Part shown: positions 22,865 through 48,598 of the stretch, in pieces
Numbering within the stretch: the stretch's first letter is position 1
Layout: each line of letters opens with the position of its first letter
Assembly (NCBI RefSeq): GCF_900113135.1
Contig: NZ_FOOH01000004.1
Location: forward strand, 1-64,000
Length of the DNA stretch: 64,000 bases
Source: Salegentibacter agarivorans
GTDB taxonomy: Bacteria; Bacteroidota; Bacteroidia; Flavobacteriales; Flavobacteriaceae
Direction: 5' to 3'
Made by a program: the position numbers and the translations under genes
Notes under the pieces: generated by a model
Databases searched by the model: none
What the model saw: the letters and a program-made list of their open reading frames with translations, nothing else
What the model was told of the DNA's origin: nothing

Positions 22865-22898
22865 AAACCTTATGCCATATTTTTTTTTAAACAGCTAT

Positions 22899-29898: not shown

Positions 29899-32094
29899 TT
29901 ATTTCAATCTAATTAATATTTCCTCTGGCGTTGCTGCACCAAGTTTGTGGCTTAATTCTCCTGGTGAAGAATTCCCAACAGTAATGTTGTATTGCCCTTT
30001 TATCCAAGCCTTTTCTCCTTTCTTATTGAAGTATTTAAGATCTTCAGGATTTAGCGTAAAGCTTAGTTTTGAGGTTTTACCCTTATCAAGATTAATACGT
30101 TGAAAAGCCTTTAAACTTTTTAAGGGTAAGTTTTCTGTATTATTAATAGGGCTTATGTAAACCTGAACCACTTCTTCTATATCATAATCACCGCTATTTG
30201 ATACTTCAATGTTTATTTCGAGGCTATCATCTTTTTTAAGCGTATTCCTATTTACTACTAGGTTTTTAAAGTTTGTGTCTGAATAAGTCAGCCCAAAGCC
30301 AAATGAATATTCAGGATCTTCAGTCATGTATTTGTAAGTTCTTCCTTGCATGGAATAATCTTCGTAGGGTGGTAATTGCTCTACACTTTTCGGAAAGGTG
30401 ATTGGTAAATGCCCTGAAGGAGATATATTTCCAAAAATTACATCCGCCACGGCATTACCCCCCTGTTCCCCTGGATACCAAATTTGAAGAATAGCATCGC
30501 AGTATTCTTCCAGACCTTCAAGGGATACTGGGCTTCCACTAGCAATTACTAATACTAATGGTCCTTTTTTATTTTCAATAATTTGTTTAACATAATCAAC
30601 CTGATTTTTAGGTAGTTTTAGATCTACCTTATCTCCAACATTTTCTGCAGCTATGGCATCTACTTCCTCTCCTTCGCGATCTGCGGTAAGTCCCACTACA
30701 CAAATAGTCACGTCTGATTCTGCAGCCACATTGGGAGCCCAGTTTTTTGAATTGATATTTTTATGAAATGGCAATGCGCCGCTTCTGTAATTAAGAGACG
30801 TGCCTGGAGAAACTACATTAGTCACTCCTTCAAGAATTGTAACCATCCCCGGGCTTACTCCATAATAACTCCCCATCAACATATCGTTAGAATTTGCAAA
30901 TGGACCTGTTAAATAAGGCGTTTTGATATCTTTCTTCAGCGGCAGGATATTATTCTTATTTTTTAATAACACAATTGATTTCTGAGCAGCTTCCTTAGCC
31001 AGGGCAATATGTCTTTGATCATGAATATTTTCCGCGCCCAAATGACTGTATGGATTTTTTGTAGCGTCATCAAACATTCCCAATCTAAATCTGGTTTTAA
31101 AAAGCTGTTTAATTCTTTCATCAATCAAATCTTCATTAATAAGGCCCAGTTCTAATGCCTCTTTTAAACGAGAATAAGTAGAACCACAGTTAAGGTTAAC
31201 TCCGGCTCTCAATGCTTCGGCTGCTGCTTTTTCTGGAGTATCAACATATTTCATTTTATATGACATTCCACCTATTGCACCACAATCTGAAGTTATATAA
31301 CCATTAAAATTCCATTCGTCCCGTAATATATCCTGAATAAGAAAAGAACTTGCTGAGGAGGGCACCCCCAAAACGGCGTTATATGCAGTCATTACACCTT
31401 CTACCTTAGCATCTAACACCAGTGCTTTAAAGGCAGGCAAATAGGTTTCGTGCAGGTCTTGCAAACTAGGCTCTGCATTAAAGGTATGCCTAGACTTTTC
31501 TGGTCCCGAATGAACGGCAAAATGTTTTGCGCAAGCACCGGTTTTCAAGTAATGCTCGTTGTCACCTTGTAGTCCTCTCACAAAAGCCACTCCCATTTTT
31601 GATGTCAGATAGGGATCTTCTCCATAAGTTTCCTGTCCTCTTCCCCATCTGGGATCTCGAAAGATATTAACATTGGGTGTCCAGAAAGTTAAACCTGCGT
31701 ATTTACCCCTATTTCCCATTTGCTGAGATAGTTTATACTTCGCTCTGGCTTCAGTAGAAATCGCAGAGGCAACCCTATGGGCCAGATCTGTATCAAATGT
31801 TGCAGCAAGTCCAATTGCCTGTGGAAAAATAGTCGATTTGCCATTTCTGGCCACACCGTGCAAAGCCTCATTCCACCAGTTATACTCAGGTACTTTTAAT
31901 CTTGGTATCGCCGGAGCACTATTGGTCAATTGGCTTATTTTTTCATCTAAATTCATTTGAGATACAAGTAGTTCTACTCGTTCATCTAATGGCAGCTCTT
32001 CATCTAAAAAGGCAAAATCTGCTTCTTGAGAGACTCCTGGTTTATTGATTAGAAACAAACATACTAGAGCAATGGCTTTAATGATATATTTCAT
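29899..32094 (-). CDS. GH3 exo-glycosidase, secreted
   Basis: A 731-residue GH3 with a signal peptide (to about residue 22). It has the TIM-barrel domain (40-360), with nucleophile D270 in GYITSDCGA and the KHF motif at 190-192. The alpha/beta sandwich domain and a C-terminal fibronectin III-like domain follow. NWWNEALHGVAR is typical of the beta-xylosidase/beta-glucosidase branch. It lies 44 bp after the mutarotase gene in the same operon. Its sugar specificity cannot be assigned; a beta-linked side branch or a beta-galactoside is possible. Confidence 0.88.
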   Translation of the reverse strand: MKYIIKAIALVCLFLINKPGVSQEADFAFLDEELPLDERVELLVSQMNLDEKISQLTNSAPAIPRLKVPEYNWWNEALHGVARNGKSTIFPQAIGLAATFDTDLAHRVASAISTEARAKYKLSQQMGNRGKYAGLTFWTPNVNIFRDPRWGRGQETYGEDPYLTSKMGVAFVRGLQGDNEHYLKTGACAKHFAVHSGPEKSRHTFNAEPSLQDLHETYLPAFKALVLDAKVEGVMTAYNAVLGVPSSASSFLIQDILRDEWNFNGYITSDCGAIGGMSYKMKYVDTPEKAAAEALRAGVNLNCGSTYSRLKEALELGLINEDLIDERIKQLFKTRFRLGMFDDATKNPYSHLGAENIHDQRHIALAKEAAQKSIVLLKNKNNILPLKKDIKTPYLTGPFANSNDMLMGSYYGVSPGMVTILEGVTNVVSPGTSLNYRSGALPFHKNINSKNWAPNVAAESDVTICVVGLTADREGEEVDAIAAENVGDKVDLKLPKNQVDYVKQIIENKKGPLVLVIASGSPVSLEGLEEYCDAILQIWYPGEQGGNAVADVIFGNISPSGHLPITFPKSVEQLPPYEDYSMQGRTYKYMTEDPEYSFGFGLTYSDTNFKNLVVNRNTLKKDDSLEINIEVSNSGDYDIEEVVQVYISPINNTENLPLKSLKAFQRINLDKGKTSKLSFTLNPEDLKYFNKKGEKAWIKGQYNITVGNSSPGELSHKLGAATPEEILIRLK

Positions 32095-32138: not shown

Positions 32139-32495
32139 CTATTGATCTAATTTAAATATCTTTTCCAAAGGCAACCATTTTTGGCCATTTTCAGCCCAGG
32201 GTAATTTTTGCTGAAAAGTATCCATCAGCTTTTCCCATTCCTGCACCTTCGGATTAGTGGCATCCATTGCTGCTTTTTTTGCCGGGTCAAAAGTTTCATC
32301 GACTTCCATGATCATAAATAAGCGGTTGCCGGTAAGATAGATCTCCATATCTACAATGCCGGCATCTTTGATACTTGTAGTGATTTCTGGCCATGCATTA
32401 CCACTGGCATGGTATTCTTTATATTTTTCTATAAGTTGTGGGTCATCCTTTAGATCACAGGAAAAACAAAATCTTCTAATATTGCTCATTCTCAT
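32139..32495 (-). CDS. L-rhamnose/L-fucose mutarotase-like protein (RhaM family)
   Basis: A 118-residue dimeric alpha/beta-barrel protein of the RhaM (COG3254) family, which interconverts alpha and beta anomers of 6-deoxy-L-sugars. Recognisable parts are CFSCDLKDDPQLIEKYKEYH, DMEIYLTGNRLFMIMEVD and the C-terminal WAENGQKWLPLEKIFKL. It starts 6 bp after the FucP-type permease stop. L-galactose and L-fucose share ring stereochemistry, so the context suggests it prepares the correct anomer for the downstream aldo/keto reductase. Confidence 0.88.
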   Translation of the reverse strand: MRMSNIRRFCFSCDLKDDPQLIEKYKEYHASGNAWPEITTSIKDAGIVDMEIYLTGNRLFMIMEVDETFDPAKKAAMDATNPKVQEWEKLMDTFQQKLPWAENGQKWLPLEKIFKLDQ

Positions 32496-32501
32496 CTACA
32501 A

Positions 32502-33824
32502 TTAATTGGTTTGATACACTTTATAAACTTGTCTCCCATAAATACCGATTACTACAAAACATATCAACGGCAGTATAAAGGAAAAATTCACTTCAGGAAC
32601 CCCAAAAATAAGGGTGTCTACATAGCCGGGGCCGCCCAAATCCAGGATATACCCCTGTAAATAAGGCATGAAAGCACCTCCCACTATAGCCATCACAAGG
32701 AAAGCTGCACCAAATTTGGCATCCTGTCCCTGTCCTTCCAAAGCAATTCCATAAATTGTGGGGAACATGATAGACATAAAAAATGAAACACCAACTAATG
32801 AGTAAAGCCCGGTCATTCCTCCCACGAAAATTGTTATTAGTGTCAGAATAAAAGCCCCAATGGCAAAATACATCAGTAGTTTACCCGGATTCACATAGCG
32901 CATTAAAGCGGTACCAACCGCACGGCCCACGAGAAATATAACAAGGGCGGCTGCTCCATAATAAACCGCTGTAGCATTGTCTATTCCTAAGGGTTCTGCA
33001 TATTGATATATATAGGTCCAGCACATGATCTGAGCGCCCACATAAAATACCTGGGCAATTACCCCACCGGCAAATTTTTTACTTTTCCACAGTCTTTTTA
33101 CAGAATCGAAAAAATTGACTTTTGCTTCCTGTTCATTATTCCTGGGCATTTTCATAATCCCTATTATTAGAAGAAAAACCAATACCACCCCTCCAAGGAT
33201 CACATATGGGTTTCTTATGATCTCCAGGTCTGAAGTCCTGATGGCCGCTTTGGCAGTCTCCGAAAGTTGATCATAGATTACCTCGCCAGATTCTGTGGTA
33301 TCATCAGATTGTAATGCGTCTAAAATAAAGCTCCTTGCTACCAGCAAGCCTGCGATAGAACCCACCGGATTAAAAGCCTGTGCCAGGTTTAGGCGTTGAG
33401 TGGCAGTCTCAGATGCACCCATAGCAAGAATATAGGGATTGGCCGTAGTCTCTAAAAATGCCAGCCCAAAGGTGAGTATATATAAGGCCACAAGAAAAAA
33501 ACCAAAACTCTCATAGGCCGCCGCGGGAAAGAACAATAAAGCACCGGCAGCGTAAAGCGCCAGGCCTATCATGATCCCTTTTTTATATGAAAATTTATTT
33601 ACAAAAAGAGCGGCTGGGATAGCCATGGTAAAGTATCCCCCATAGAATGCAGCCTGAACCAAAGAAGCCTGGGTATTTGACAGTTCCAGCACTTTTTTAA
33701 ATGCCGAGACCATTGGATTGGTAATATCATTTGCAAAACCCCATAAAGCAAATAGGGAAGTAATCAGAATAAATGGGATGATTACCGACTTTGATACGAC
33801 CGGAATATTTTTTATTTTATTCAT
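32502..33824 (-). CDS. fucP: FucP-type sugar:proton symporter (MFS)
   Basis: A 440-residue inner-membrane transporter with about 12 hydrophobic segments. It belongs to the FucP branch of the major facilitator superfamily. Hallmarks are LWGFANDITNPMVSAFKK near the start, GYFTMAIPAALFV, and LETTANPYILAMG. E. coli FucP takes L-fucose and also accepts L-galactose, which fits this operon. It lies between the aldo/keto reductase and the mutarotase. Import of the monosaccharide released in the periplasm by GH29 is the predicted role. Confidence 0.9.
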   Translation of the reverse strand: MNKIKNIPVVSKSVIIPFILITSLFALWGFANDITNPMVSAFKKVLELSNTQASLVQAAFYGGYFTMAIPAALFVNKFSYKKGIMIGLALYAAGALLFFPAAAYESFGFFLVALYILTFGLAFLETTANPYILAMGASETATQRLNLAQAFNPVGSIAGLLVARSFILDALQSDDTTESGEVIYDQLSETAKAAIRTSDLEIIRNPYVILGGVVLVFLLIIGIMKMPRNNEQEAKVNFFDSVKRLWKSKKFAGGVIAQVFYVGAQIMCWTYIYQYAEPLGIDNATAVYYGAAALVIFLVGRAVGTALMRYVNPGKLLMYFAIGAFILTLITIFVGGMTGLYSLVGVSFFMSIMFPTIYGIALEGQGQDAKFGAAFLVMAIVGGAFMPYLQGYILDLGGPGYVDTLIFGVPEVNFSFILPLICFVVIGIYGRQVYKVYQTN

Positions 33825-33916: not shown

Positions 33917-34876
33917 TTATTTATCCTTATTACGTATAGACAAAACACTATTGGTAATTTCATCGAAAATATCCTCTGGCAATTTACCCTCGTTCCATGC
34001 CGTAATTAAGTCTTCCAATTGGGCTTTCTTACTTGGTCCCACAACAACTCGATCGGCCTCTTCAATCGAAAATACATATCTAAAGGCCAATCTGGATATT
34101 GGAATATCATACTTTTTAGCAATATCCTTTGTCTTTAAGGCAGCATCTACATCTAAATTACTTATCCACTCATTGTTGGGTCGTTCTTCATCGTACATAT
34201 CTAATCTTCGGCCCAATAATCCCATATGCAAGGCCGAGGCTGCATAATAGGCTATATTTTCCCTTTGGATTTGAGGAATATCTTTATCAAAGGCTGTTAA
34301 ATTACAGGCGTCCAGTTTTAGGAAGCCAGATAGCACATCAAAATTCTCCTTTTTCATATAGGGATAAAAGTCTTTACTTGGATTACCTCCTATACCAAGC
34401 ATCTTGACAATACCCTCTTTTTTAATAGCCTTTAAACAATCCAGGATTTCATCCATTTTTTCTATGGGAACCAAATGCGGTTCATGTAAAAACAATAAAT
34501 CAATGCTATCTAATCCCAGAACTTCTAAACTTTCGTACACGCTTTTCCGCATAGTTTCTGGGGAGTAGTCTGTTATGCAGTCTTCGGCCTTATCTGCTCT
34601 TAAACGTCCTACCTTTGTACTAATAAATGGTTTTTCCCCAGACCATTCTTTCAATGCTTTGCCCAGGAAATATTGGGATTTATTATACGCTGGCGCAGTA
34701 TCAAAAACCCTCACATTATTTTCTAAAGCATGTAACATGGCGCCTACTGCATCCTTTTCTTCAATCGGTCTCCATACGCCTCCCAGTCCCGAACAACCAA
34801 GCACTAAACGGCTCTGATTATTGAAAAATTGACTTTTTGTATGATCTCCCTTAATATATGTTGGCTTTGTTCTCAT
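33917..34876 (-). CDS. Aldo/keto reductase, predicted L-galactose (L-fucose) 1-dehydrogenase
   Basis: A 319-residue aldo/keto reductase. The catalytic tetrad is readable as D59, Y64 (DTAPAYNKSQ), K88 (STKVG) and H131 (LFLHEPH). Family relatives include D-threo-aldose/L-fucose 1-dehydrogenase and plant L-galactose dehydrogenase, which oxidise the anomeric carbon to a lactone. It lies 11 bp after a sugar lactonase gene, so oxidation followed by lactone hydrolysis is the obvious pairing. L-galactose is the proposed substrate because of the downstream enzymes in the operon; L-fucose is the alternative. Confidence 0.8.
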   Translation of the reverse strand: MRTKPTYIKGDHTKSQFFNNQSRLVLGCSGLGGVWRPIEEKDAVGAMLHALENNVRVFDTAPAYNKSQYFLGKALKEWSGEKPFISTKVGRLRADKAEDCITDYSPETMRKSVYESLEVLGLDSIDLLFLHEPHLVPIEKMDEILDCLKAIKKEGIVKMLGIGGNPSKDFYPYMKKENFDVLSGFLKLDACNLTAFDKDIPQIQRENIAYYAASALHMGLLGRRLDMYDEERPNNEWISNLDVDAALKTKDIAKKYDIPISRLAFRYVFSIEEADRVVVGPSKKAQLEDLITAWNEGKLPEDIFDEITNSVLSIRNKDK

Positions 34877-34887
34877 TTTAAATTAAT

Positions 34888-35718
34888 TTAAAGATTATAA
34901 AATGCTTTCGCTGTTTCTCCCAATACCGCTTTCTGTTCTTCTATACCCAATTTGTCGGTATAGGTTTCCAATATTCCTTTTATTTCCGCATAGCTGCCCC
35001 CCAGTAAACATACCGGCCAGTCTGAACCAAACATGATACGTTCTGCCCCAAACCATTCAAAAATTACATCCAGATAAGGTACAAAATCATCATACTTCCA
35101 GGTATCGACATCAGCTTCGGTGACCATTCCCGAGACTTTGCAATACACATTAGCCTGGGCGGCCAGGGCTTTCATTTTTTCTCTCCACCCATCAATTTCT
35201 CCATTCTTTATATCCGGTTTGGCTATATGGTCTATCACAAATTTTTGCTTCGGAAACTTTTTTACTGTGGCCAGGGCCGCTTCCATTTGTGAAGGAAAAA
35301 TGAGGATATCGTAGGTAAAGCCATATTTCTCTAAAAGAGCTATCCCTTTTTGAAAATCTGGACGTGTCATAAAACCTATATCAGGTTCATCCTGCACCAC
35401 ATGCCGAAAGCCTTTCAGTTTAATAAATTGTTTATAATACTCCAGTCTTTTTTCAAGTTCAGGAGATCTAATATCTATCCATCCTACCACCCCTTTTATA
35501 AACTCATTTTTATCGGCGAGTTCCAGCAGAAAATTGGTTTCTTCCTCGGTTTGATCGGCCTGTACCGCTACGCAACCCGATATAGCTTCTTTCTCGTATA
35601 TGGGTTGAAGGTCCTCCGGTAAAAAATCTTTCTGAATCACCTTCATATCATCCCCAATCCAACTATGCTTTTCGGAATCATACTTCCAAAAATGCTGGTG
35701 GGCGTCAATTTTCATCAT
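34888..35718 (-). CDS. Amidohydrolase-family sugar lactonase
   Basis: The start at 35718 (MMKIDAHQHFW) is chosen; the longer in-frame start at 35754 would overlap the upstream uxaB gene. The 276-residue protein belongs to the amidohydrolase_2 family with the metal-binding DAHQH motif at the start, IDHIAKP in the middle and GSDWPV near the C-terminus. This group contains L-fuconolactonase and L-rhamnonolactonase. Between an aldose dehydrogenase and acid-sugar enzymes, it most likely opens L-galactono-lactone to L-galactonate. Confidence 0.83.
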   Translation of the reverse strand: MMKIDAHQHFWKYDSEKHSWIGDDMKVIQKDFLPEDLQPIYEKEAISGCVAVQADQTEEETNFLLELADKNEFIKGVVGWIDIRSPELEKRLEYYKQFIKLKGFRHVVQDEPDIGFMTRPDFQKGIALLEKYGFTYDILIFPSQMEAALATVKKFPKQKFVIDHIAKPDIKNGEIDGWREKMKALAAQANVYCKVSGMVTEADVDTWKYDDFVPYLDVIFEWFGAERIMFGSDWPVCLLGGSYAEIKGILETYTDKLGIEEQKAVLGETAKAFYNL

Positions 35719-35735
35719 CTCTTTATAAGGTTTAA

Positions 35736-37211
35736 TTATAAGCTTTTCAGGCACTCATGTACCCCGTTTTTTTCTATACATTCCATATGTACGGCGATAG
35801 TTTCCACCAGCCCATCATATTTGGTGAGGTCTTCCCCAAAAATCTTTGGGTTGCTCAAAGCAGTTTCCACTAGGCTATTCAAACTAATTTCTTCGGAATC
35901 TCTTCTTTCCCATAATTCGGTAAAAAACCGGATCACCTCGCTATCATCTTTCACTTCAATCTTCTTTCCGCTAAATTCTCCTTTGTAAAACCGAAGCATG
36001 CAAGACATCGAAAAAGCAATCCGTTTAGGAAATTGTTTATTTTCCGAAGCATATTCCTTAAAAGCCGGTAGCAAACGTGCCTGAAATTTTGAAGTACTGT
36101 TCAGGGAAATAGCCAGCAGATAATGTTTTAAAGTAGGATTTCTAAACCGGTCTAATACCGAATTTATAAAAGCATCTATTTCAGCTTCCTGAAAATCACT
36201 CAACGTAGGTTTAATTTCTTCCCGCAAGACTTTTTCAACATGGGTGGAAACCAGCTTATCATCCATGCTTTCCTTTACCGTCCGCAATCCCGCCAGGTAA
36301 CCGACAGGCACCAGCGAAGTATGTGCCCCGTTCAATATTCTTACTTTAAGTTCGCGGTATGATGCAAGGTCTTCAACAAACTCTACATTCAAATTAGTTT
36401 TATCAAAAGGCAGTTCATTTTTAACGGTTTCGGGCGCTTTTATAATCCAACTATGATATTCTTCCCCGGCTACCAGTAAAGGATCTTCATAACCTGTCTT
36501 TCGCTGAATTTCATCCTTCCTATTCTCAGGAAAACCAGAAACGATGCGATCTACCAGGGTACTACAGAAGTAGTTGTGATTTTCAATCCACTGCTGAAAA
36601 TCATCTCCTAAATTCCACAATTTAATATACTGTAAGACTGTTTTTAAAAGCTCTTCACCATTGTTTTCTATTAATTCACAGGGTAAAAGAATACAACCTT
36701 TATCTTCAGCTCCCTTAAAATGATCAAATCTGGCATGTAACCACAAAGTTAGTTTTGCTGGAAATTCTTTTGGAGGGGTAGCTTCAAAATCATCTGATTC
36801 AGAGAATTTAATACCAGCTTCGGTAGTGTTAGAAATAATATAGCGAATCTCTGGCTGCAGAGCGGTTTTTAAATATTCATCCCATTCGTTATAGGAATGG
36901 ATAATCCTGCTCACACAACTTATCAGTTTAACTTCAGAAAGCATTTCGCCTTCCTTTATCCCATCCAGAGCCACATGAAAAAGGCCATCCTGTTGCTTTA
37001 ATTCTTTATAATTTCCACCTTCAGTAGGTTTTACAACGATCACGCCAGCATCAAAATCGGTTTTTTCATTCAGTTCATTGATCATCCAGTCACAGAAAGC
37101 CCTTAAAAAATTACCGCCGCCAAACTGTAATACGCGTTCGGGGTATTTAATTGGATTATTTGTTGTATTCCTATTGAGTTGCTTCATTAAAAGAGTTGTC
37201 ATTTTGTTCAT
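35736..37211 (-). CDS. uxaB: Tagaturonate reductase (D-altronate oxidoreductase)
   Basis: A 491-residue NAD-dependent long-chain polyol dehydrogenase of the UxaB type. The N-terminal Rossmann motif VLQFGGGNFLRAFCDW is typical. The C-terminal helical domain has VRILNGAHTSLVPVGYL. It reduces D-tagaturonate to D-altronate. It stands 42 bp after uxaA, in the same operon. In a pure fucose pathway this enzyme would have no function, which is a main reason to prefer L-galactonate as the intermediate. The annotated start could be a few codons downstream, since several Met codons occur in the first ten residues. Confidence 0.9.
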   Translation of the reverse strand: MNKMTTLLMKQLNRNTTNNPIKYPERVLQFGGGNFLRAFCDWMINELNEKTDFDAGVIVVKPTEGGNYKELKQQDGLFHVALDGIKEGEMLSEVKLISCVSRIIHSYNEWDEYLKTALQPEIRYIISNTTEAGIKFSESDDFEATPPKEFPAKLTLWLHARFDHFKGAEDKGCILLPCELIENNGEELLKTVLQYIKLWNLGDDFQQWIENHNYFCSTLVDRIVSGFPENRKDEIQRKTGYEDPLLVAGEEYHSWIIKAPETVKNELPFDKTNLNVEFVEDLASYRELKVRILNGAHTSLVPVGYLAGLRTVKESMDDKLVSTHVEKVLREEIKPTLSDFQEAEIDAFINSVLDRFRNPTLKHYLLAISLNSTSKFQARLLPAFKEYASENKQFPKRIAFSMSCMLRFYKGEFSGKKIEVKDDSEVIRFFTELWERRDSEEISLNSLVETALSNPKIFGEDLTKYDGLVETIAVHMECIEKNGVHECLKSL

Positions 37212-37253
37212 TCTATCAGGTATTGAAAACTGTCAGATATTTGGGTGAAAATT

Positions 37254-38915
37254 CTATAAAGAAATTCCTCTTTTCCAGGGAATAAAATCATTTTGATTTT
37301 GCAGTACCGCCTTGGCTTCTTTCTCCCCACTGGCTACCAGGATTATTTCTTCCAAAATCTTTTCTCCCATAGATGATATAGTATCTTCGCCGGTAATTAC
37401 CGTACCTGCATTAATATCAATAATATCGTTCATCCGCTTAAAAAGAGTGGTATTGCTGGACATTTTTAAAACCGGGGCCACCGGGTTTCCGGTAGGGGTG
37501 CCAAGACCCGTAGTAAAAACGATCATATTACAACCGCTCCCGGCAAGACCGGTAGTGCTTTCCACATCATTCCCGGGGGTACATAAAAGATTTAATCCTG
37601 GTTTTGTTACTTTTTCTGTATAATCTAAAACGGAAACTACCGGGGAAGTCCCACCTTTTTTGGCAGCCCCGGCAGATTTGATAGCGTCTGTGATCAAGCC
37701 ATCTTTAATATTTCCTGGAGAAGGATTATTTTTAAAACCCGATCCAACATCTTCTGCTCTCTGGGCATAGCGTTTCATGATATGGGCAAATTTTTCGGCA
37801 TCTTCTTTTTCCCTGCAACGATTGATGAGTTCTTGTTCCACCCCGTTTAGTTCTGGAAATTCAGAGAGTACCGGCGAACCACCCAATGTAGTGAGTAGAT
37901 CAGAGGCATAACCAAGAGCGGGATTACAGGAAATTCCTGAAAAACCATCAGAACCACCACATTCCAAACCTAAAATAAGCTTGTCTAAAGCTGCGGGTTT
38001 CCGGGTTATTTTATCTGCGCCTGCTAAACCAATAAATGTCTTTTTAACCGCGGTTTCTATAAACTTTCGTTCATTTCCAATTTGTTGCTGTTCCAGGTAA
38101 TAGACCGGTTTCTGAAAATCACTGTCTTTTTCTGAAATTGCTTTCTGAAGCATTTCCATCTGGGCATTCTGGCAGCCCAAACTCAAAATGGTAGCACCGG
38201 CTACATTGGAATTGGTAATATATCCTGCGAGTAGCCTGCACAAAGTTTCGGAATCCTGCCTGATGCCCCCACAACCGCCATCATGCTTTAAAAATTTAAT
38301 CCCATCCACATTGGGGAACAAACGGTTTTTTACAATCTCCTCCCTTGTATGGACAATGGAAGTTTCCATTAGGTCTTCCGCTGTTGCACCGCTTTTATAT
38401 GCCTCTATCAGTTTAGGGGTATCTACGGAATAATCTTTATTGGTTTGATAACCCAATGCTTCCATTAAGGCATCCCGAACCACATCTATATTTCTGTTCT
38501 CACAAAAAACCAGAGGGATCACCAACCAGTAGTTTCGGGTGCCCACCGAACCGTCGGCACGATGATACCCATTAAATGTCCTGTCTTTGAATTTTGAAAC
38601 ATCCGGCTGAGTCCATTCATATTTCGATTGTTCCGGGTTAAATTCCGCAGAAGCATGTTCAATATTTTCAGTAGTAATGGCTGCGCCTCGTTCTATAGGC
38701 TGAATAGCTTTGCCAACCAAAACGCCATACATAACAATTTCGTCGCCTACTTTAAAATCATGAAGTGCGAATTTGTGTTTTTGTTTTATATCCTCTACCA
38801 AGGAGAATTCTTTCCCTACAATATGAACCAAGGTATTTTTTGGCAAATTCTGAATGGCCACGATAATATTATCCCGGGTATCTATCTGTGAATATGGTTG
38901 TGCCGTTTTAGCCAT
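37254..38915 (-). CDS. uxaA: Altronate dehydratase, fused SAF and catalytic domains
   Basis: A 553-residue UxaA/GarD-family dehydratase. Residues about 10-90 form the SAF domain and about 115-553 the dehydratase domain. Motifs include YHRADGSVGTRNYW, HDGGCGGIRQDSETL, LGCQNAQ and GLECGGSDGFSG. It converts D-altronate to 2-keto-3-deoxy-D-gluconate. In some bacteria the two domains are separate proteins; here they are fused as in E. coli. It lies between eda and uxaB with short spacers (22 and 42 bp). Confidence 0.92.
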   Translation of the reverse strand: MAKTAQPYSQIDTRDNIIVAIQNLPKNTLVHIVGKEFSLVEDIKQKHKFALHDFKVGDEIVMYGVLVGKAIQPIERGAAITTENIEHASAEFNPEQSKYEWTQPDVSKFKDRTFNGYHRADGSVGTRNYWLVIPLVFCENRNIDVVRDALMEALGYQTNKDYSVDTPKLIEAYKSGATAEDLMETSIVHTREEIVKNRLFPNVDGIKFLKHDGGCGGIRQDSETLCRLLAGYITNSNVAGATILSLGCQNAQMEMLQKAISEKDSDFQKPVYYLEQQQIGNERKFIETAVKKTFIGLAGADKITRKPAALDKLILGLECGGSDGFSGISCNPALGYASDLLTTLGGSPVLSEFPELNGVEQELINRCREKEDAEKFAHIMKRYAQRAEDVGSGFKNNPSPGNIKDGLITDAIKSAGAAKKGGTSPVVSVLDYTEKVTKPGLNLLCTPGNDVESTTGLAGSGCNMIVFTTGLGTPTGNPVAPVLKMSSNTTLFKRMNDIIDINAGTVITGEDTISSMGEKILEEIILVASGEKEAKAVLQNQNDFIPWKRGISL

Positions 38916-38937
38916 GGTTTTTTTGCTGTTTTATTGA

Positions 38938-39609
38938 TTATCCCTTCCGTAGTTTTTGAATAAGCGAAAGGGTTTCTTTTACTTTTAGTTCTAATCCCTC
39001 AAAATCCTCACTGGCGAGCACTTCTTTTGAAATCAGTTTTGATCCCAGCCCAACGCAGGTTACCCCGGCATCAAACCACCCTTTTAAGTTTGTTTCTTCA
39101 GTGGTAACGCCACCGGTGGGCATAATAGAGGTCCAGGGTTGTGGTCCTAAAATGCCTTTTACAAAGCCGGGGCCATAAATATTCCCCGGGAATAACTTTA
39201 CAATCTCACAACCCAGTTCTTCTGCCTGGGCAATTTCAGTTAAACTGCCGCAGCCCGGAGACCATAAAACCTTTCTCCGGTTACAGACAATGGCGATATC
39301 TTCCCTTAAAACCGGGGTCACAATAAAATTAGCCCCTAAAGACATGTACAGGGAAGCGGCTGCGGCATCGGTCACCGAGCCCACACCCAGTACCATTCCC
39401 GGCAATTCATCTATGGCATATTTGTTCAATTCTTCAAAGACCTCCTGTGCAAAATCCCCTCTGGCGGTAAATTCCATCAATCTGGCACCTCCATTAAAAC
39501 AGGCTTTCAACACCTTTTTTCCCAGTTCAATATCAGGATGGTAAAATAAAGGTACCATCCCGGTTTCTTTCATGATCCCTGCAACTTCTATTCTTGAAAA
39601 TTGAGCCAT
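38938..39609 (-). CDS. eda: KDPG aldolase
   Basis: A 223-residue class I aldolase of the KDPG/KHG family. The Schiff-base lysine is K138 in EIVKLFPG. E46 lies in MEFTARG, the equivalent of the catalytic Glu. PTGGV marks the phosphate-binding loop. It splits 2-keto-3-deoxy-6-phosphogluconate into pyruvate and glyceraldehyde-3-phosphate. It lies 27 bp after the KDG kinase gene, so the kinase and aldolase form the bottom of the pathway. Confidence 0.92.
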   Translation of the reverse strand: MAQFSRIEVAGIMKETGMVPLFYHPDIELGKKVLKACFNGGARLMEFTARGDFAQEVFEELNKYAIDELPGMVLGVGSVTDAAAASLYMSLGANFIVTPVLREDIAIVCNRRKVLWSPGCGSLTEIAQAEELGCEIVKLFPGNIYGPGFVKGILGPQPWTSIMPTGGVTTEETNLKGWFDAGVTCVGLGSKLISKEVLASEDFEGLELKVKETLSLIQKLRKG

Positions 39610-39636
39610 TTTATACTCTTTAAATTAAGCTTATTT

Positions 39637-40659
39637 TTATCTATTTACTTTAGCAGAGCCATCACTGGATATACATTCCAATACATCTTCCTTAGTTACC
39701 CTGTTCACATCCCCAAAAATGCTATGTTTTAAAGCACAAGCAGCGGTCGCAAAATTGATTGTTTTTTTCCTGTCTTCCCCAAACGTTAATAATCCGTATA
39801 GCAACCCACCCATAAAGGCATCCCCGGTACCTACACGGTCCACCAGGGGTTGTATTTCATATTTTTTAGCCTGGTATAAGGTCTTTTCTTTATACAATAA
39901 ACCTCCAATACGCTGATGGGAGGCATTAACAGATTCCCTGAAGGTCATCCCAATGGTATGCAGTTCAGGCAACAATTCTATCAGATTTAAAAAATGTCCT
40001 TTTACTTCATTCTCATTAGTATACTCAGGAGCTACTTTTTCTTTTCCCAACATAAACATGGTGGTATCGATATCGCCAAGGATGACATTGCTATACTGCA
40101 ACATTTCCGGCATGATCTCATAGGGTGCTTTTCCGTATTGCCATAGTTTGCTGCGATAATTGAGGTCTGTGGAAATACCAAGCCCCATTTTATTTGCCAT
40201 TTTAATGGCTTCCAGGCAAACATCTGCCGCCGACTGGGAAAGGGCGGGCGTCACTCCACTCCAATGGAACCAGGTGGCATCCTTAAATATTTCTTCCCAG
40301 TTAAAATCTCCTTTTTCAATTTTTGAAATGGAAGAGTTTTCACGATCATAGACTACTTTACTTGGGCGTACAGAATTTCCTATTTCTATAAAATAAATAC
40401 CCAATCGGTTTCCCTGGCGGATAATATGTTGGTTCCCCACCTGGAATTCACGGGTTGCTTTTAACGCACAATCGCCAATTGCATTATCGGGCAACGCCGT
40501 TACAAACTCAGTATCTATTCCATAATTTGATAGAGATGCCGCGACATTGAACTCCCCACCTCCATAAATAACATCGAAATTACTCGCCTGGCTAAACTTA
40601 CGATTATCTGGAGGCGACAAACGCATTAGAACCTCACCAAATGTGACTACTTTATGCAT
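39637..40659 (-). CDS. kdgK: 2-keto-3-deoxygluconate kinase (PfkB family)
   Basis: A 340-residue ribokinase-fold sugar kinase. The substrate-side glycine motif is GGGEFNVAASLSNYG (33-47) and the second PfkB signature is DRVGTGDAFMGGLLYG, with catalytic base D280. Its position between the LgoD-like dehydrogenase and KDPG aldolase points to phosphorylation of KDG with ATP. D-tagatose or fructose kinases share the fold but are less consistent with this operon. Confidence 0.88.
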   Translation of the reverse strand: MHKVVTFGEVLMRLSPPDNRKFSQASNFDVIYGGGEFNVAASLSNYGIDTEFVTALPDNAIGDCALKATREFQVGNQHIIRQGNRLGIYFIEIGNSVRPSKVVYDRENSSISKIEKGDFNWEEIFKDATWFHWSGVTPALSQSAADVCLEAIKMANKMGLGISTDLNYRSKLWQYGKAPYEIMPEMLQYSNVILGDIDTTMFMLGKEKVAPEYTNENEVKGHFLNLIELLPELHTIGMTFRESVNASHQRIGGLLYKEKTLYQAKKYEIQPLVDRVGTGDAFMGGLLYGLLTFGEDRKKTINFATAACALKHSIFGDVNRVTKEDVLECISSDGSAKVNR

Positions 40660-40670
40660 ATATTAATTCT

Positions 40671-41678
40671 CTAAAAATCTACAGTGGCCTTTATAACCCC
40701 AGTTTCTGGTTTAGTCCAGCTATTAAAATTTTCAATCATATCTTTAAATGGAACATTATGAGTAATAAATGAAGTAGTTGGAAACTCTTCCAGCACATTA
40801 ATAACATGCTCGAAATCTTCCACAGTGGCATTTCGACTACATAAAATAGATGATTCCTTGGCATGAATTTTAGGATGGATAAAAATTAATTCCCCTTTAG
40901 ATAAGCCTACCAGGACATACCGTCCGCCGTGGGCCATATAATCAGGACCATTTTCCAGGGCAACTTTATGGCCGGTGGCATCAAAGACCACATCTGCCAG
41001 ATCGCCACCGGTAATTTCATTGATTTTTTCAACCGGATCTTTGGTAACATTCACTATGCAATCTGCTCCTATTTCATTTTTAGCGTACTCCAGGCGGTCA
41101 TCATTCATATCCAAAGCAATTACCTTAGCTCCAGCTATTTGGGCAAGTTTAATAATTCCAATACCTATTGGACCACAACCCACAACAACTACGGTCTCAC
41201 CTTCTTTTAGCTGTGCCCTCCTAATTGCATGCGCCCCGATGGCCAGGGGTTCTACAATAGCCATTTGATCATTGGACAACTGGTTTGCCGGAAGTAAAAG
41301 ATCCTGACGCACCGTTATGAATTCCTGCATCCCACCATCAGAATGCACCCCGATCACACTAATATTGGAACAGCAATTGGTCTTCCCGTTTCTACATGCT
41401 ACACATTCTCCACAGCTTATATAGGGCATCACTACCACATTGTCTCCCACTTTTATCCCCCGATTATTTTCTCCAATCTCCACCACTTCTGAAGCCAGTT
41501 CATGTCCCAGAATACGAGGATAAGTAAAAAATGCCTGGTTCCCAGAAAAAGCGTGCAGATCGGTGCCACAAATCCCTACTTTTTTAACTCTTAACAGCGC
41601 TTCATTGTTTTTACGAACTGGTTTGTCCTTCTCCTTTAGTTGAAAATTCCCCGGTTCTTCACATACTATGTATTTCAT
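40671..41678 (-). CDS. Zinc-dependent dehydrogenase, LgoD-like (L-galactonate to D-tagaturonate)
   Basis: The start at 41678 (MKYIVCEEPG) is chosen; the longer frame to 41729 would overlap the GH29 stop. It is a 335-residue medium-chain dehydrogenase. Catalytic zinc residues are C37, H59 and E60 (GICGTD, LGHE). Structural zinc cysteines are C89, C92, C95 and C103, and the NAD-binding motif is GCGPIGIG. From memory it shares with E. coli LgoD (YjjN) the stretches ICGTDxHAxxGNQxFFxYPRxLGHE and SVIGVHxDGG. LgoD oxidises C5 of L-galactonate, giving D-tagaturonate, the substrate of the uxaB product encoded nearby. A threonine/sorbitol dehydrogenase role is the fallback. Confidence 0.8.
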   Translation of the reverse strand: MKYIVCEEPGNFQLKEKDKPVRKNNEALLRVKKVGICGTDLHAFSGNQAFFTYPRILGHELASEVVEIGENNRGIKVGDNVVVMPYISCGECVACRNGKTNCCSNISVIGVHSDGGMQEFITVRQDLLLPANQLSNDQMAIVEPLAIGAHAIRRAQLKEGETVVVVGCGPIGIGIIKLAQIAGAKVIALDMNDDRLEYAKNEIGADCIVNVTKDPVEKINEITGGDLADVVFDATGHKVALENGPDYMAHGGRYVLVGLSKGELIFIHPKIHAKESSILCSRNATVEDFEHVINVLEEFPTTSFITHNVPFKDMIENFNSWTKPETGVIKATVDF

Positions 41679-41691
41679 GTTTTTTTTATTT

Positions 41692-43251
41692 TTAAGCTCT
41701 CGTAAACTCCAATACGTGGGCGTAATCACCTGATTTTTCTCCTAAGTTTTCAACCTTAAGGCCCTCATCGTTTTTTACGAATTTTAGTTTAACATTACTA
41801 CCCAGTAACCGGATATTTTTGATTTCAAAATCTTTTCCAAATTCACTATCGCTGCCCAAAGATTTAATATTCACTTCACCAGCTTCAGGCCAAGCCATCA
41901 TAATGGCATATAACTTATCGCCTTTTTTGGTAAAACGGATATCCTGTCCAGTAAAGTCTTTATTATCCCCTTCAGAATGGTGTCCTTTTTTTACTTCAGT
42001 AGGACCTTCACCAAAAGTTTCCCAATATTCGGTCTCATAGATTGCCTCTCCATTAACAGACAGCCAATCTCCAATTTCTAGCAGGATTTCTTTTTGATCA
42101 TCGGGAATAGTCCCGTCTGCTCTCGGACCAACATTTAGTAATAAATTACCATTCTTAGAAACTATATCTACAAGGTCATCTATTAGTTGGTTGGTATTTT
42201 TAGATTTCCAATTGGTCACATAACTCCAGGAGTTTTTTCCTATAGAGGTATCGGTTTGCCATGGAAGTTTTCTAATACCGGGCAGTTTACCACGTTCCAA
42301 ATCGTAGATCACTGTGCCTTCAGGAAAAGCTTCGTGATTAAAATTTTTATCATTTATAACCACTTCTTTTCCCCATTCATTTCCTTTATTATAATAGTAG
42401 GCGGCTATTTTGGGTCTTAGGTCTTCAAAATCTGGAATATCTAGATAAAAATCAAACCAAAGGATATCGGGTTGATAATTGTCAATTAGATCTGTAGTCC
42501 TATCCCACCACCTTTTTTTAAATTCTTCGGAAACCGGTTCTTCAAGATCTTTTCCTTTTGAAGAATATAAATCTGCATATTCAGGGTTTGAAGTGTCAAA
42601 ATGATCTTTTTTATTATAAAAGGACCAGTTGAAAGCGAAATGCGAAGAAGCTCCCATAATCATATTCTGCTTGCGGCCTTCCTTAAATAACTCTCCTACT
42701 ATATCTTTTTTAGGCCCCATATCTACAGAGTTCCAACGTGTGGTTTTGGAATCGTACATCGCGAAACCATCGTGATGATCGGCCACAGGGATTACATATT
42801 TTGCCCCGGCTTTTTTGAACAGGTCAATCCACTCTTTTGCATTAAACTTTTCACCTTTGAACATTGGAATAAAATCTTTATATCCAAAATCCTTTTGTTT
42901 TCCCCAATTCTCTACATGGTGCTTATATACATCCGATGGCCCGTCAGATTGATGCTTCAGTTGTGCTGTAAAGGCAGCTGTATCCATATACATTTGGCGA
43001 GGGTACCATTCTGAACTATATGCGGGCACCGAATATGCTCCCCAGTGGATAAAAATCCCAAATTTCTTCTGATTGAACCATTCGGGATCTTTATAGTTTT
43101 TTTTAATGGATTCCCAGTTGGGCTCAAAGACTTTCTCCTCTTTAGACTGGTTTTCGGCTACATCACTATTAGTCTTTTTTTTGTCCTGCCCACAGGCCGA
43201 AAAAATAAAGATGGCTAACAGCAAAATGCCTATTTGATTTCTTGTTTTCAT
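41692..43251 (-). CDS. GH29 alpha-L-fucosidase-family enzyme, lipoprotein
   Basis: A 519-residue GH29. The lipobox IFSAC gives Cys20. The catalytic nucleophile is D267 (LWFDFY). The conserved His pair is present in DHHDGFAMYDS (H159, H160), and HWGAYSVPAYSSEWY is at 69-83. A C-terminal beta-sandwich domain follows the barrel. GH29 retaining enzymes cleave alpha-L-fucose, and some members act on alpha-L-galactose, which differs only by the 6-hydroxyl. It is the first gene after SusD and ends 13 bp before the LgoD-like gene, so release of L-galactose for the following pathway is the favoured reading. Confidence 0.88.
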   Translation of the reverse strand: MKTRNQIGILLLAIFIFSACGQDKKKTNSDVAENQSKEEKVFEPNWESIKKNYKDPEWFNQKKFGIFIHWGAYSVPAYSSEWYPRQMYMDTAAFTAQLKHQSDGPSDVYKHHVENWGKQKDFGYKDFIPMFKGEKFNAKEWIDLFKKAGAKYVIPVADHHDGFAMYDSKTTRWNSVDMGPKKDIVGELFKEGRKQNMIMGASSHFAFNWSFYNKKDHFDTSNPEYADLYSSKGKDLEEPVSEEFKKRWWDRTTDLIDNYQPDILWFDFYLDIPDFEDLRPKIAAYYYNKGNEWGKEVVINDKNFNHEAFPEGTVIYDLERGKLPGIRKLPWQTDTSIGKNSWSYVTNWKSKNTNQLIDDLVDIVSKNGNLLLNVGPRADGTIPDDQKEILLEIGDWLSVNGEAIYETEYWETFGEGPTEVKKGHHSEGDNKDFTGQDIRFTKKGDKLYAIMMAWPEAGEVNIKSLGSDSEFGKDFEIKNIRLLGSNVKLKFVKNDEGLKVENLGEKSGDYAHVLEFTRA

Positions 43252-43555: not shown

Positions 43556-45022
43556 TTAATACCCATTATTTTGTTCTAAAACCCCATCAGATAAAGAAAC
43601 CTGCTCAAATGGAATAGGCATAATTTCATTAATACCTTCCTTAAAGCCTAATGGAGCCAAAATAGTTTCGGCACGATCTGTACGCACTAGGTCGTGATAC
43701 CTTAATCCTTCTCCAGCTAGTTCCAGTCTTCTTTCTTTATAAATAGCATCTAAAAGGTCTTCTCCACTCAAAGTACTATCTAAATTAGGCACGATGGAAT
43801 TAGAATTTTCGCCCCTGGCCCTGGTTCTCACTTTATTTACATATTCCCTAGCTAAAGCTGGATCTTCATTATAAATAGCTTCGGCATACATTAAATAAAC
43901 GTCTGCCAATCGAATAAAACGGATGTTGTGCGGATTGTTTCCTGCTCCCCCAACATTTGGTCTTTGGTAATTACTATGTGGAGCCAGGGAATATTTCCTA
44001 TTGTACCAATTGGTCCCGTAGTTCCCTTCTACATTATAAAAGGAAGATTCAAACCTGGGATCATTAGTATCAAACTCGTCCCTAAGGCCATCTTTAATTT
44101 GAGAAAAACCAATACCTCCTTGATTTCTAGGTTGAAGCATATGAGGAATCCTTCCTCCCAAAAAATCTGAATTGGAAGAAAAATCAATTTCAAAAACAGA
44201 ACCGGAATTCCATTCCCCAGCTGGTTCAAAAATATCATCAAAGTTGGGAAGGCTATATGCCAATTGCAAAATTTGCTCTCCATATAGTCTTACCTGATCC
44301 ATTTTGTTTTGGTATAAAGAAACCCGCATCATTAATCCAAGGGCAGCACCCTTATCAGCGTGTCCCAAATATTCCTGTCCCATTTCAAAACGAGATGGCA
44401 AATCTTCTATAGCTTTTTCAAGATCATTTTCGATAAAAGCATAGGTTTCTTCTTTGCTTGCCCTAGGTTGGTTATACTCGCCAGCCTCTAAAGACATTTC
44501 AATTAATGGCACTCCTCCAAAGGTATTTACCAAATCGAAGTAATAATAAGCCCTAAGAAAATTCGCTTCCGCTAAAATTCTGGTTTTAAGCCCTTCGTCT
44601 TCAAACTCAATTCCTTGAACTTTCTCCAATACTAAGTTGGCATATAAAATCCCTTTATAATTAACCTTCCAAATATTGGCAACAGCAGGGTTGGAAGTAG
44701 TTAAATTATAGTTTTGTTTTTCAAAAAGATGTGGGCCATCACTAGACCTAGCACCGCCTTTTAAGATATCATCGGTTCCAATGTCACCAAATATAAAATC
44801 GCTAGCGGTTGTAGCACCAAAATTTTGTGTAGAAAACATTTCCCTCATTGGGTAATAAGCAGCCGTTAAGGCTTGCTGGGCATCACTTTCTGTTTTATAA
44901 AAATTTTCTTCGGTCGGTTCTCCATAAGGTTCCTCCTCCAGATAATCGCTACAAGATCCTAAGCTTAATACTGCCAGAACGAAAAATATAATTCTACCTG
45001 TTCTAATCTTATTATAATTCAT
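43556..45022 (-). CDS. SusD-like glycan-binding outer-membrane lipoprotein
   Basis: A 488-residue RagB/SusD-family protein. The lipobox is LGSC (Cys24), followed by DYLEEEPYG. The N-terminal part has TESDAQQALTAAYYPMREMF and the helical repeat region EANFLRAYYYFDLVNTFGGVPL, a strong SusD signature. The C-terminal part has IYKERRLELAGEGLRYHDLVRTDRAE. It forms the extracellular lid of the SusC transporter encoded just upstream. It is presumed to bind porphyran-type oligosaccharides. Confidence 0.95.
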   Translation of the reverse strand: MNYNKIRTGRIIFFVLAVLSLGSCSDYLEEEPYGEPTEENFYKTESDAQQALTAAYYPMREMFSTQNFGATTASDFIFGDIGTDDILKGGARSSDGPHLFEKQNYNLTTSNPAVANIWKVNYKGILYANLVLEKVQGIEFEDEGLKTRILAEANFLRAYYYFDLVNTFGGVPLIEMSLEAGEYNQPRASKEETYAFIENDLEKAIEDLPSRFEMGQEYLGHADKGAALGLMMRVSLYQNKMDQVRLYGEQILQLAYSLPNFDDIFEPAGEWNSGSVFEIDFSSNSDFLGGRIPHMLQPRNQGGIGFSQIKDGLRDEFDTNDPRFESSFYNVEGNYGTNWYNRKYSLAPHSNYQRPNVGGAGNNPHNIRFIRLADVYLMYAEAIYNEDPALAREYVNKVRTRARGENSNSIVPNLDSTLSGEDLLDAIYKERRLELAGEGLRYHDLVRTDRAETILAPLGFKEGINEIMPIPFEQVSLSDGVLEQNNGY

Positions 45023-45130: not shown

Positions 45131-45170
45131 AAAAACCCTTGAGAGGGCTTTTAATCCTTAAGGAAGGATT
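45131..45170 (-). terminator. Tandem hairpins after SusC gene, possible attenuator before SusD
   Basis: Read on the minus strand, a hairpin AATCCTT-CCTT-AAGGATT overlaps the SusC stop codon. It is followed by CCCT-CTCA-AGGG and a TTTTT run. Two adjacent hairpins with a U-tract at the susC-susD junction could end part of the transcripts and tune the SusC:SusD ratio. Confidence 0.5.
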
Positions 45171-48100: not shown

Positions 48101-48198
48101 CCAGTTATCGTAGTAGATTGTGCTTGGGAAATAGCTCCGCTAAATAGTAAAAAAATTACAAACAAAACTTGCAACTTGTTACTTCTAATTAATTCCAT
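45169..48198 (-). CDS. SusC-like TonB-dependent outer-membrane transporter
   Basis: The start at 48198 (MELIRSNK) gives a proper signal peptide ending in ISQAQ; the upstream in-frame start at 48243 is less likely. The 1009-residue protein begins with a carboxypeptidase-D-like domain (ITGTVIGDGYPLPGVSVVIKG, TDFDGNFSI). The TonB box/plug region follows (VIVGYGTQKKSDVTGAVSS, QAIQGRAAGV, RIRGTGTV), then a 22-strand beta barrel ending in TLGLDVTF. It imports oligosaccharides with its SusD partner. It is the first gene of the minus-strand operon, divergent from the second SusC gene. Confidence 0.95.
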   Translation of the reverse strand: MELIRSNKLQVLFVIFLLFSGAISQAQSTTITGTVIGDGYPLPGVSVVIKGTNNGVVTDFDGNFSIDGESSVTLVFSYVGFITKEILVEGKTNLEVTLEPDLAKLDEVVIVGYGTQKKSDVTGAVSSISSEDIQKTANVSINQAIQGRAAGVTVSKTSGSPGASPTVRIRGTGTVNNADPLYVVDGIPVNDIRNINMADAESIEVLKDASATAIYGSRGANGVVLIQTKTGKSEKPVLSYNMYTGFQSRVDNIDILSGPQWGMLSNEANRNDGNEINPDFANPESLPTYAWEDAAYRDGLVQNHQLSFSGRSDKTTYYVSYGYISQEGVIKGSSYKRQNLRVNNTYQLTEDIKFGHNLQYANSSRISSPESGQDPWRRAAFVGYIAEPITPLFQEDGSYGVTQYSSAVNPLGLVEFGSMPEKRENFLGNFFLEANLAEGLLFRSNFGVDINKIEVDNYIPDYNVAPTYNSPESTYILNRAEQKSLVWSNTLNYNKVFNKKHDFTALLGHEIQEISYNNVNAQRSEIPGSVSNPTLGSGNVATASNNGGRSESKLLSFFGRLNYNFDERYLVTATYRVDGSSRFGSNNRWGKFPSMALGWNIHNEDFFQTDFINQLKFRAGWGETGNQNLPNASTFNTLDLNTNYPFGINEITNVGAAPLRPGNQDLKWETTVTQNVGIDMAFWKNQLSFTADYFIKNTTDLLLAVPILATSGYQQSPFGNAGDIENKGLELSTTYRKNINDFNFKIGGNVSFIRNKVTELATDGSLILSAPAQGFGSVGRTEVGHSLASFHGYEMIGIFQTQEEVENNAAFPNTQPGDVRYRDINEDGIINDDDKTYIGSPFPDFTYGLNFEVNYKQWDLSLFFQGTQGNDIFNASAYYLEADLGTNLSTKMLDRWTGEGTSNAVPRVTYLNNGVNTQQSSRFVRDGSYGRLKNAQLGYAFSESLLESLSISKLRIYVSGQNLLTFTNYDGLDPEIGVDQTFNNPLDIGVDRGRYPSTRTVTLGLDVTF

Positions 48199-48598
48199 AT
48201 TAACTCTCTTAAATTTAGTTTCACAAATCTGGCTATTTCCCATAACTTCACTAACAACATATGTTTAATTTAATAGAACAAATTTTGAAGAAATAGAAAA
48301 CTGATATCTATTCTATTTTTTGTATAAATAAGAACCATTACTCAAGGTTAAGTATGCTCCCCCTTGCACCAGTACGATTGTAAAAACATATGATTCTATA
48401 TAAAAATCATTTGTTTTACTTTTAAGCAACAAGAAACTTTTATTAGAAAGATAAGTTTTCTGCTGACCTACCTATTACTTAATATTCTTAATGAAAAGTC
48501 CTAAGTCTTAGATTTTAAAAAAGCAGCTAACCATCTTTTTTACGTACGGAAGGAAGCCTGTCCCAACACAAAGAAATCTACGCTAAAAAACCCATGGC
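48199..48598. promoter_or_regulatory. Upstream region of minus-strand SusC operon
   Basis: 400 bp without a gene, AT-rich, upstream of the SusC gene that starts at 48198. The operon promoter should lie here, but I could not identify a convincing -7/-33 pair. Confidence 0.4.

Follow-up and report, generated by a model that had tools for sequence, protein, structure and literature searches.

A predicted L-galactose catabolic operon in a porphyran-type region of Salegentibacter agarivorans

L-Galactose is a rare sugar of red seaweed and a main building block of porphyran. The literature passages on porphyran that we drew on cover the release of L-galactose, not its use by marine degraders. How a marine bacterium might use this sugar once it is released is the question raised by a locus of Salegentibacter agarivorans. 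We analyzed the first 64,000 nucleotides of one contig (C34:1-64000; here called the window) of a 4.3-Mb draft genome in 56 contigs. Seven adjacent genes on its minus strand (positions 33917 to 41678) very probably form, to judge from their sequences, a self-contained Flavobacteriaceae operon for L-galactose catabolism within a region for porphyran use. Because each enzyme can be assayed simply, the operon opens the use of L-galactose by marine degraders to direct testing.

Seven enzymes for a predicted route from L-galactose to pyruvate

The first-pass annotation of the window had described seven adjacent minus-strand genes that together supply every step of an L-galactose route. Both points were borne out by sequence: the seven open reading frames (ORFs) are uninterrupted, Pfam assigns the expected family to each enzyme, and identities to the Escherichia coli LgoD, UxaB, and UxaA proteins fit the proposed steps. 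In the first step, an aldo/keto reductase (AKR; 33917..34876; PF00248, 153 bits), the predicted L-galactose 1-dehydrogenase, would convert L-galactose to L-galactono-lactone. An amidohydrolase-2 protein (34888..35715, with the ORF running to a GTG at 35754; PF04909, 169 bits) is the predicted L-galactono-lactonase and would open the lactone to L-galactonate. The third step, oxidation of L-galactonate at C5 to D-tagaturonate, is predicted for an LgoD-like Zn-dependent dehydrogenase (40671..41678, with the ORF running to a GTG at 41729; PF08240 and PF00107), and a UxaB-like D-tagaturonate reductase (35736..37211; NF002969, 656 bits against a cutoff of 359) would then yield D-altronate. A UxaA-family protein (37254..38915; PF20629, 314 bits; PF04295, 131 bits), the predicted D-altronate dehydratase, would form 2-keto-3-deoxygluconate (KDG) in the fifth step. 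The route would end with a PfkB-family kinase, the predicted KDG kinase KdgK (39637..40659; PF00294, 100 bits), giving 2-keto-3-deoxy-6-phosphogluconate (KDPG), and with the KDPG aldolase Eda (38938..39609; NF005499, 375 bits against a cutoff of 275), giving pyruvate and glyceraldehyde-3-phosphate. A homologue is present for every step of the pathway.

For the comparison with E. coli K-12, the lgoD, uxaA, and uxaB sequences were taken from NC_000913. BLAST alignments were near full length for all three proteins, with identities of 42% to LgoD (339 columns), 44% to UxaB (484 columns), and 31% to UxaA. Eight residues of the LgoD-like enzyme (C37, H59, E60, C89, C92, C95, C103, and E143), presumably its zinc ligands, were invariant in a seven-row alignment (A3), and the same was true in a second seven-row alignment (A1) of D59, Y64, K88, and H131 of the AKR, which we took as the AKR tetrad. 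The lactonase matched PDB entry 4dlf at 210 bits, and a search of the genome for PF08125 turned up no protein but the UxaB of the window.

An AKR, a lactonase, and an LgoD-like enzyme standing above UxaB and UxaA would be best explained by a sugar that gives L-galactonate. The chemistry of the later steps bears on this point as well. KDG kinase phosphorylates the 6-hydroxyl group, which is present in L-galactose and absent from L-fucose (6-deoxy-L-galactose). Because the kinase requires a free 6-hydroxyl, L-fucose is excluded as a substrate of the full route.

Conservation of the gene set and ancestry of the first enzyme

From a pattern scan of the GTDB species genomes, we examined the best 80 of 88 AKR loci; the window's own genome may be absent from this set. 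Genes in stretches of up to ∼10 kb on each side were labeled by their best BLAST matches to 42 reference proteins (E value of 1e-15 and at least 28% identity). Fifteen further loci whose AKR was at least 70% identical to that of the window were defined as sister loci, and the remaining 65 were treated as other AKR loci. Homologues of the lactonase, the LgoD-like enzyme, UxaB, the FucP-type permease, and the mutarotase were found in all 15 sister loci, UxaA was found in 14, and all seven enzymes were found in 6. Two loci from Wenyingzhuangia (L045 and L046, the latter from the cultured strain W. aestuarii DSM 105044) carry all seven in the order seen in the window. Within the stretches examined, none of the 65 other loci had UxaA, UxaB, KdgK, or Eda, and 24 of them had a homologue of the enolase-type MR_MLE proteins (23 clear, and one in L098 at just 28% identity), a dehydratase type that L-fucose routes would be expected to have. 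No MR_MLE dehydratase was found in the operon or in any sister locus. With 15 further occurrences, the gene set is not due to chance; the operon is a conserved unit.

Some loci depart from this pattern. Among the sister loci, L047, which is the same place as L034, alone lacks a UxaA gene between those for UxaB and LgoD. L094 and L095 carry an AKR (46% identity), a lactonase (53%), FucP (51 to 52%), and LgoD (59 to 61%) but neither UxaA nor UxaB within the stretch, and they may have the same upper route in a different layout. In L038, the MR_MLE protein is enolase-like by Pfam and adjoins a short-chain dehydrogenase/reductase (SDR); it may dehydrate L-fuconate.

We also searched 199 sampled Flavobacteriaceae genomes, including Mariniflexile, Tamlana, Flavicella, and Ochrovirga, which overlap in part with the 80 loci (L047 is G134, L049 is G084, L056 is G002, L059 is G180, and L080 is G177). 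At an E value of 1e-3, 132 genomes had an AKR match; 7 of these scored above 360 bits, and the next best reached 67 bits. Five of the seven strong matches were 72 to 100% identical to the window AKR, with UxaB adjoining in all five and UxaA in four. The other two (G177 at 51% and G180 at 57%) were not counted as UXA type because their stretches contain neither UxaA nor UxaB.

The AKR had been read at first as an ordinary L-galactose dehydrogenase, and by sequence this part of the annotation did not hold. Its top three PDB matches are L-galactose dehydrogenases, at weak scores (78, 78, and 68 bits). For a comparison of lineages, we used the L-galactose dehydrogenases in the PDB and the AKR of a Bacteroidales locus, L162, as stand-ins for the type found in Phocaeicola (Bacteroides) vulgatus. 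The L162 AKR scored 431 bits against 7lh6 and 285 to 338 bits against four further L-galactose dehydrogenase sequences, compared with 78 bits at best for the window AKR. Judged by these scores, the window AKR therefore belongs to another lineage, outside that of the known L-galactose dehydrogenases, and step 1 is thus the weakest step of the pathway. AKRs share one fold, and a comparison of folds would hardly separate their substrates.

A tree of 83 AKRs (the 80 loci, the window, L162, and a second Bacteroidales locus, L169, with the AKRs of L164 and L166 left out) placed the window AKR in a clade of 16 rows with support of 100/100. The method warned of long branches and of composition, and the root serves for drawing only. 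All 15 other members of the clade sit with UxaB; they come from Flavobacteriaceae (11), Marinifilaceae (3, all Labilibaculum), and Prolixibacteraceae (1). The clade is nested in a larger group that holds the AKRs of MR_MLE-type loci, and the L162 and L169 AKRs are separated from the window group by long branches with support of 100/100. One change per label suffices on this tree, with unlabeled rows not counted. Twelve positions (28, 43, 68, 147, 218, 219, 223, 232, 235, 262, 281, and 293) distinguish the 16 UXA AKRs from 23 FUCD AKRs, a set that omits the 28% match L098, which was kept in the tree.

We regard a fuller account of this history as evenly poised between right and wrong. In it, the AKR would be an independently recruited L-galactose dehydrogenase that arose in a mainly L-fucose-type AKR group through a single switch to L-galactose and became joined to the full tagaturonate-altronate-KDG route, making a one-operon end step of porphyran use in marine Bacteroidota. 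The locus offers an example of a pathway whose first enzyme has been exchanged for one of other ancestry, along with twelve candidate positions that set this AKR apart from L-fucose-type AKRs.

Porphyran surroundings and alternative substrates

Porphyran is the likely source of the L-galactose, given that the region holds, by sequence, relatives of a porphyranase, an L-galactose-6-sulfatase, and an alpha-L-galactosidase. The GH29 gene upstream of the seven enzymes (41692..43251, minus strand) encodes a predicted exo-alpha-L-galactosidase, with best PDB matches to 7snk and 7ljj (432 and 428 bits) versus 296 bits for the first alpha-fucosidase, 4ni3. According to passages of PMC12316285, 7SNK and 7LJJ are BpGH29, an exo-alpha-L-galactosidase. 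An S1 sulfatase on the plus strand (22851..24599), the predicted exo-L-galactose-6-sulfatase, best matched 7lha, an enzyme of that activity (619 bits), followed by 7snj and 7sno; its first match of another type was the N-acetylglucosamine-6-sulfatase 5g2v (372 bits). A GH16 gene 1.7 kb outside the window (C34:65687-66658) scored 358 bits against 8ep4, described in passages of PMC12316285 as the 6-O-methyl-porphyranase BpGH16C. On the plus strand, a cytochrome P450 (13869-15026), a flavoprotein reductase (15345-16607), and a Zn-dependent alcohol dehydrogenase (Zn-ADH; 16618-17736), all assigned by Pfam, make up a predicted 6-O-methyl-D-galactose demethylation set like the neighborhood reported from porphyran-using Flavobacteriia in excerpts of PMC10033563. 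In the proposed scheme, GH16 porphyranases would cleave porphyran, the S1 sulfatase would strip the 6-sulfate from terminal L-galactose, and GH29 would free the sugar.

The association with porphyran-type genes extends to other genomes. Among the 199 genomes, the P450 was found in 15 (E value of 1e-40), the GH16 in 7 (E value of <1e-100; the G102 GH16, at 34% identity, passes 1e-30 and not 1e-100), and a GH29 at least 70% identical in 16. All five genomes with a UXA-type AKR carry the P450, the BpGH16C-like GH16, and the GH29, and in all five these genes and the AKR lie on one contig within ∼53 to 120 kb. With the window genome left out (four of four), the hypergeometric P values, which ignore relatedness, were 1.6e-5 for P450, 2.4e-7 for GH16, and 2.2e-5 for GH29. 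Together with the GH29, GH16, and sulfatase matches, this joint occurrence backs the earlier suggestion that L-galactose is the substrate and porphyran its source. The sole congener sampled, G031, had a weak AKR match and no P450, GH29, or GH16 match at these thresholds, which may point to a recent gain or loss of the region.

On the minus strand, the gene order is SusC, SusD, GH29, LgoD-like Zn-ADH, KdgK, Eda, UxaA, UxaB, lactonase, AKR, FucP, RhaM mutarotase, and GH3. The FucP-type sugar:H+ symporter (32502..33824; TIGR00885, 551 bits against a cutoff of 280) is predicted to take up L-galactose, and the RhaM-family mutarotase (118 amino acids; 32139..32495; PF05336, 114 bits) would equilibrate its anomers. 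The GH3 gene (29899..32094; PF00933 and PF01915) follows the mutarotase gene after 44 bp, and from the start of GH29 at 43251 down to GH3 at 29899 the intergenic gaps range from 6 to 92 bp. A gap of 304 bp separates GH29 from the SusD-like protein (43556..45022; PF14322 and PF07980), which follows the SusC-like TonB-dependent transporter (45169..48243; PF00593, PF07715, and PF13715). The first-pass annotation had put FucP, the mutarotase, and GH29 on the same transcript as the seven enzymes; the genes are present as described (32139 to 43251), and a single transcript spanning SusCD and the operon is possible from this layout. Scans for promoters (62 found; shuffle mean, 59.3; standard deviation, 7.5) and terminators (22 found; shuffle mean, 17.5; standard deviation, 3.8) gave counts within the shuffle range and are therefore uninformative on transcript ends.

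Other genes of the window deserve mention. A second GH29 (60050-61579), 46% identical to that of the operon, is also nearest to BpGH29 (423 bits versus 300 for the first fucosidase). The operon is closed, 202 bp beyond GH3, by a sulfatase (28191-29696) whose best PDB match is an S1_15A sulfatase (170 bits), in a near tie with an N-acetylgalactosamine-6-O-sulfatase (169 bits); L-galactose-6-sulfatase is not among its PDB matches. The left contig edge (1-12065), beside the porphyran-type region, carries a Y2 transposase, an IS66 transposase, two tyrosine integrases, and an AAA/DUF4435 protein.

Several observations weigh against the assignment of the operon to L-galactose from porphyran. NCBIfam cutoffs were passed by UxaB and Eda, and also by FucP, and five of the seven enzymes fell below them: the AKR (best score, 70 bits; cutoff, 550), the lactonase (L-fucono-1,5-lactonase model, 297 bits; cutoff, 400), UxaA (galactarate dehydratase model, 282 bits; cutoff, 731), KdgK (kinase part of the aldolase/kinase fusion model NF041633, 392 bits; cutoff, 700), and the Zn-ADH (best score, 205 bits; cutoff, 376). 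The PDB score of the AKR to L-galactose dehydrogenases (78 bits) is barely above that to IolS (66 bits), and its nearest relatives on the tree are AKRs from L-fucose-type loci rather than the known L-galactose dehydrogenases. An LgoD homologue from one L-fucose-type locus shares 40% identity with E. coli LgoD, about the same as the window enzyme at 42%, and identity alone therefore does not set the substrate. Within ∼10 kb on each side, just 6 of the 15 sister loci contained KdgK and Eda, and just 4 contained GH29. Moreover, UXA-type AKRs are absent from 10 of the 15 genomes with P450, 11 of the 16 with GH29, and 2 of the 7 with GH16. The operon is therefore not general among likely porphyran users, and the 10 P450 genomes without it raise the question of how L-galactose is used in them.

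Of the alternatives, an oxidative operon for L-fucose, in which the AKR and lactonase form L-fuconate, survives best, and we consider it very unlikely. Fucose-family labels on FucP, on the fuconolactonase-like lactonase, and on GH29 speak for it, as does the tree, where the neighbors of the AKR belong to loci that also encode an enolase-type protein and an SDR. UxaA-family proteins of Campylobacter jejuni act as fuconate dehydratases, and the UxaA label alone is thus compatible with L-fucose. However, the enolase-type protein is missing from the operon and from all 15 sister loci, the GH29 is nearest to an alpha-L-galactosidase, and by established chemistry a 6-deoxy acid would leave UxaB, KDG kinase, and KDPG aldolase without a job. 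A further cluster of the genome, on contig C18, is probably dedicated to L-fucose, with an SDR, a lactonase, a UxaA-family protein, an FAA hydrolase, GH95, and two GH29-like genes, and L-fucose therefore need not use the operon in the window. This cluster (L041; G000:C18, 1922-15000) also includes an AraC gene; its UxaA-family protein and lactonase are 52% and 45% identical to those of the window, and it looks like an L-fucose route in which a UxaA-family dehydratase replaces the enolase type.

A route of wider L-hexose range, like that of Luteolibacter, with the first two enzymes also taking L-glucose and L-gluconate, has slightly less to recommend it, and we would be surprised to find it here. 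The Luteolibacter enzymes LguA and LguD accept both sugars, according to passages of PMC12632266. However, a search confined to the operon proteins gave no epimerase-like gene, no source of L-glucose is evident, and the surroundings indicate L-galactose. The least probable alternative is a D-galacturonate operon drawing its tagaturonate from UxaC and not from L-galactose: UxaB, UxaA, KdgK, and Eda are a shared lower route, and with a UxaC elsewhere in the genome and the window UxaB as sole PF08125 match, galacturonate may drain through the operon too, but this use would leave the AKR, the lactonase, and LgoD without a job, no UxaC occurs in the operon or the 15 sister loci, the one UxaC found lies on contig C23 near UxuA, an SDR, KdgK, and Eda in a likely glucuronate cluster, and the operon neighbors resemble porphyran enzymes.

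Comparison with known systems

The predicted L-galactose operon shares parts with several known systems. A P. vulgatus pathway from L-galactose to D-tagaturonate (Bvu0219/Bvu0220/Bvu0222) was reportedly described by Hobbs et al. in 2014; it is said to include an amidohydrolase lactonase and to rely on hexuronate degradation as its lower route. The window resembles it in its AKR, in the amidohydrolase lactonase that P. vulgatus reportedly has, and in a dehydrogenase leading to D-tagaturonate, and differs in having the lower route, reportedly hexuronate degradation in P. vulgatus, within the operon. As in the P. vulgatus type, a lactonase lies beside the AKR (gap, 11 bp) and an L-galactonate dehydrogenase is predicted by homology, whereas the AKR lineage is a different one. 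In a lactonase search of 295 genomes from the order of Labilibaculum, 27 matched, 10 of them besides Labilibaculum's at 332 to 375 bits, and one more was partial. In the 10 neighborhoods examined, the Bacteroidales loci L162 and L169 have a LacI regulator, a FucP-type permease, an AKR, a lactonase, a Zn-ADH, GH29, and a mutarotase; L164 has an AKR, a lactonase, a Zn-ADH, and a mutarotase, and the short L166 has a permease, an AKR, and a lactonase. The L162 gene set resembles the set reportedly present in P. vulgatus, and its LgoD-like counterpart is 36% identical to that of the window. The P. vulgatus pathway, with BVU_0219 and BVU_0222, is cited in passages of PMC12632266.

In Luteolibacter sp. 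LG18, purified enzymes and gene disruptions tie the lguABCDEF cluster to growth on L-galactose, and the route passes via altronate and KDG (excerpts of PMC12632266). As in the window, a dehydrogenase, a 5-dehydrogenase, and UxaB-, UxaA-, and Eda-type enzymes are clustered; unlike in the window, the kinase LguH and the 5-keto-L-gluconate 4-epimerase LguG lie in other clusters. LguA falls into one group with the L-galactose dehydrogenases of plants and P. vulgatus. The text of PMC12632266 makes no use of the word lactonase, and its excerpts hold no porphyran context. The first-pass annotation had suggested that the link of L-galactose oxidation to a tagaturonate branch may be undescribed; according to these excerpts of PMC12632266, it already exists in P. 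vulgatus and Luteolibacter.

The E. coli route of LgoD, UxaB, UxaA, KdgK, and Eda has homologues throughout in the window (KdgK and Eda by family), but it begins at L-galactonate, and its lgoD, uxaA, and uxaB genes are widely separated on the chromosome. In Halomonas, lgoD, uxaA, and uxaB (or uxaF) are predicted together in loci for L-fucose, L-fuconate, and L-galactonate (excerpts of PMC5507952); unlike in the window, the route begins from the acid and a TRAP transporter is used, and L-galactose is mentioned nowhere in that paper. The porphyran polysaccharide utilization locus of Bacteroides plebeius resembles the window region in having relatives of BpGH29, BpS1_11, and BpGH16C. In excerpts of PMC12316285, its depolymerization of porphyran is treated, not the fate of L-galactose, and no demethylation gene is suspected around the locus. 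Zobellia expression and porphyran breakdown are covered without an L-galactose route in passages of PMC12316285 and PMC5613140, and those of PMC5943477 and PMC8360166 deal with anhydro-L-galactose use and porphyran cutting, again without such a route. In the passages on Flammeovirga, tagaturonate refers to galacturonate use and L-galactose mostly to anhydro-L-galactose.

Literature searches in open-licence PubMed Central yielded neither titles nor abstracts that deal with the seven-enzyme set in a porphyran region. The chemistry itself is known, both from L-galactose to D-tagaturonate in P. vulgatus and along the altronate and KDG route in Luteolibacter. What seems new relative to these systems is the complete operon in a porphyran region, its tie to porphyran genes, and an AKR of different ancestry.

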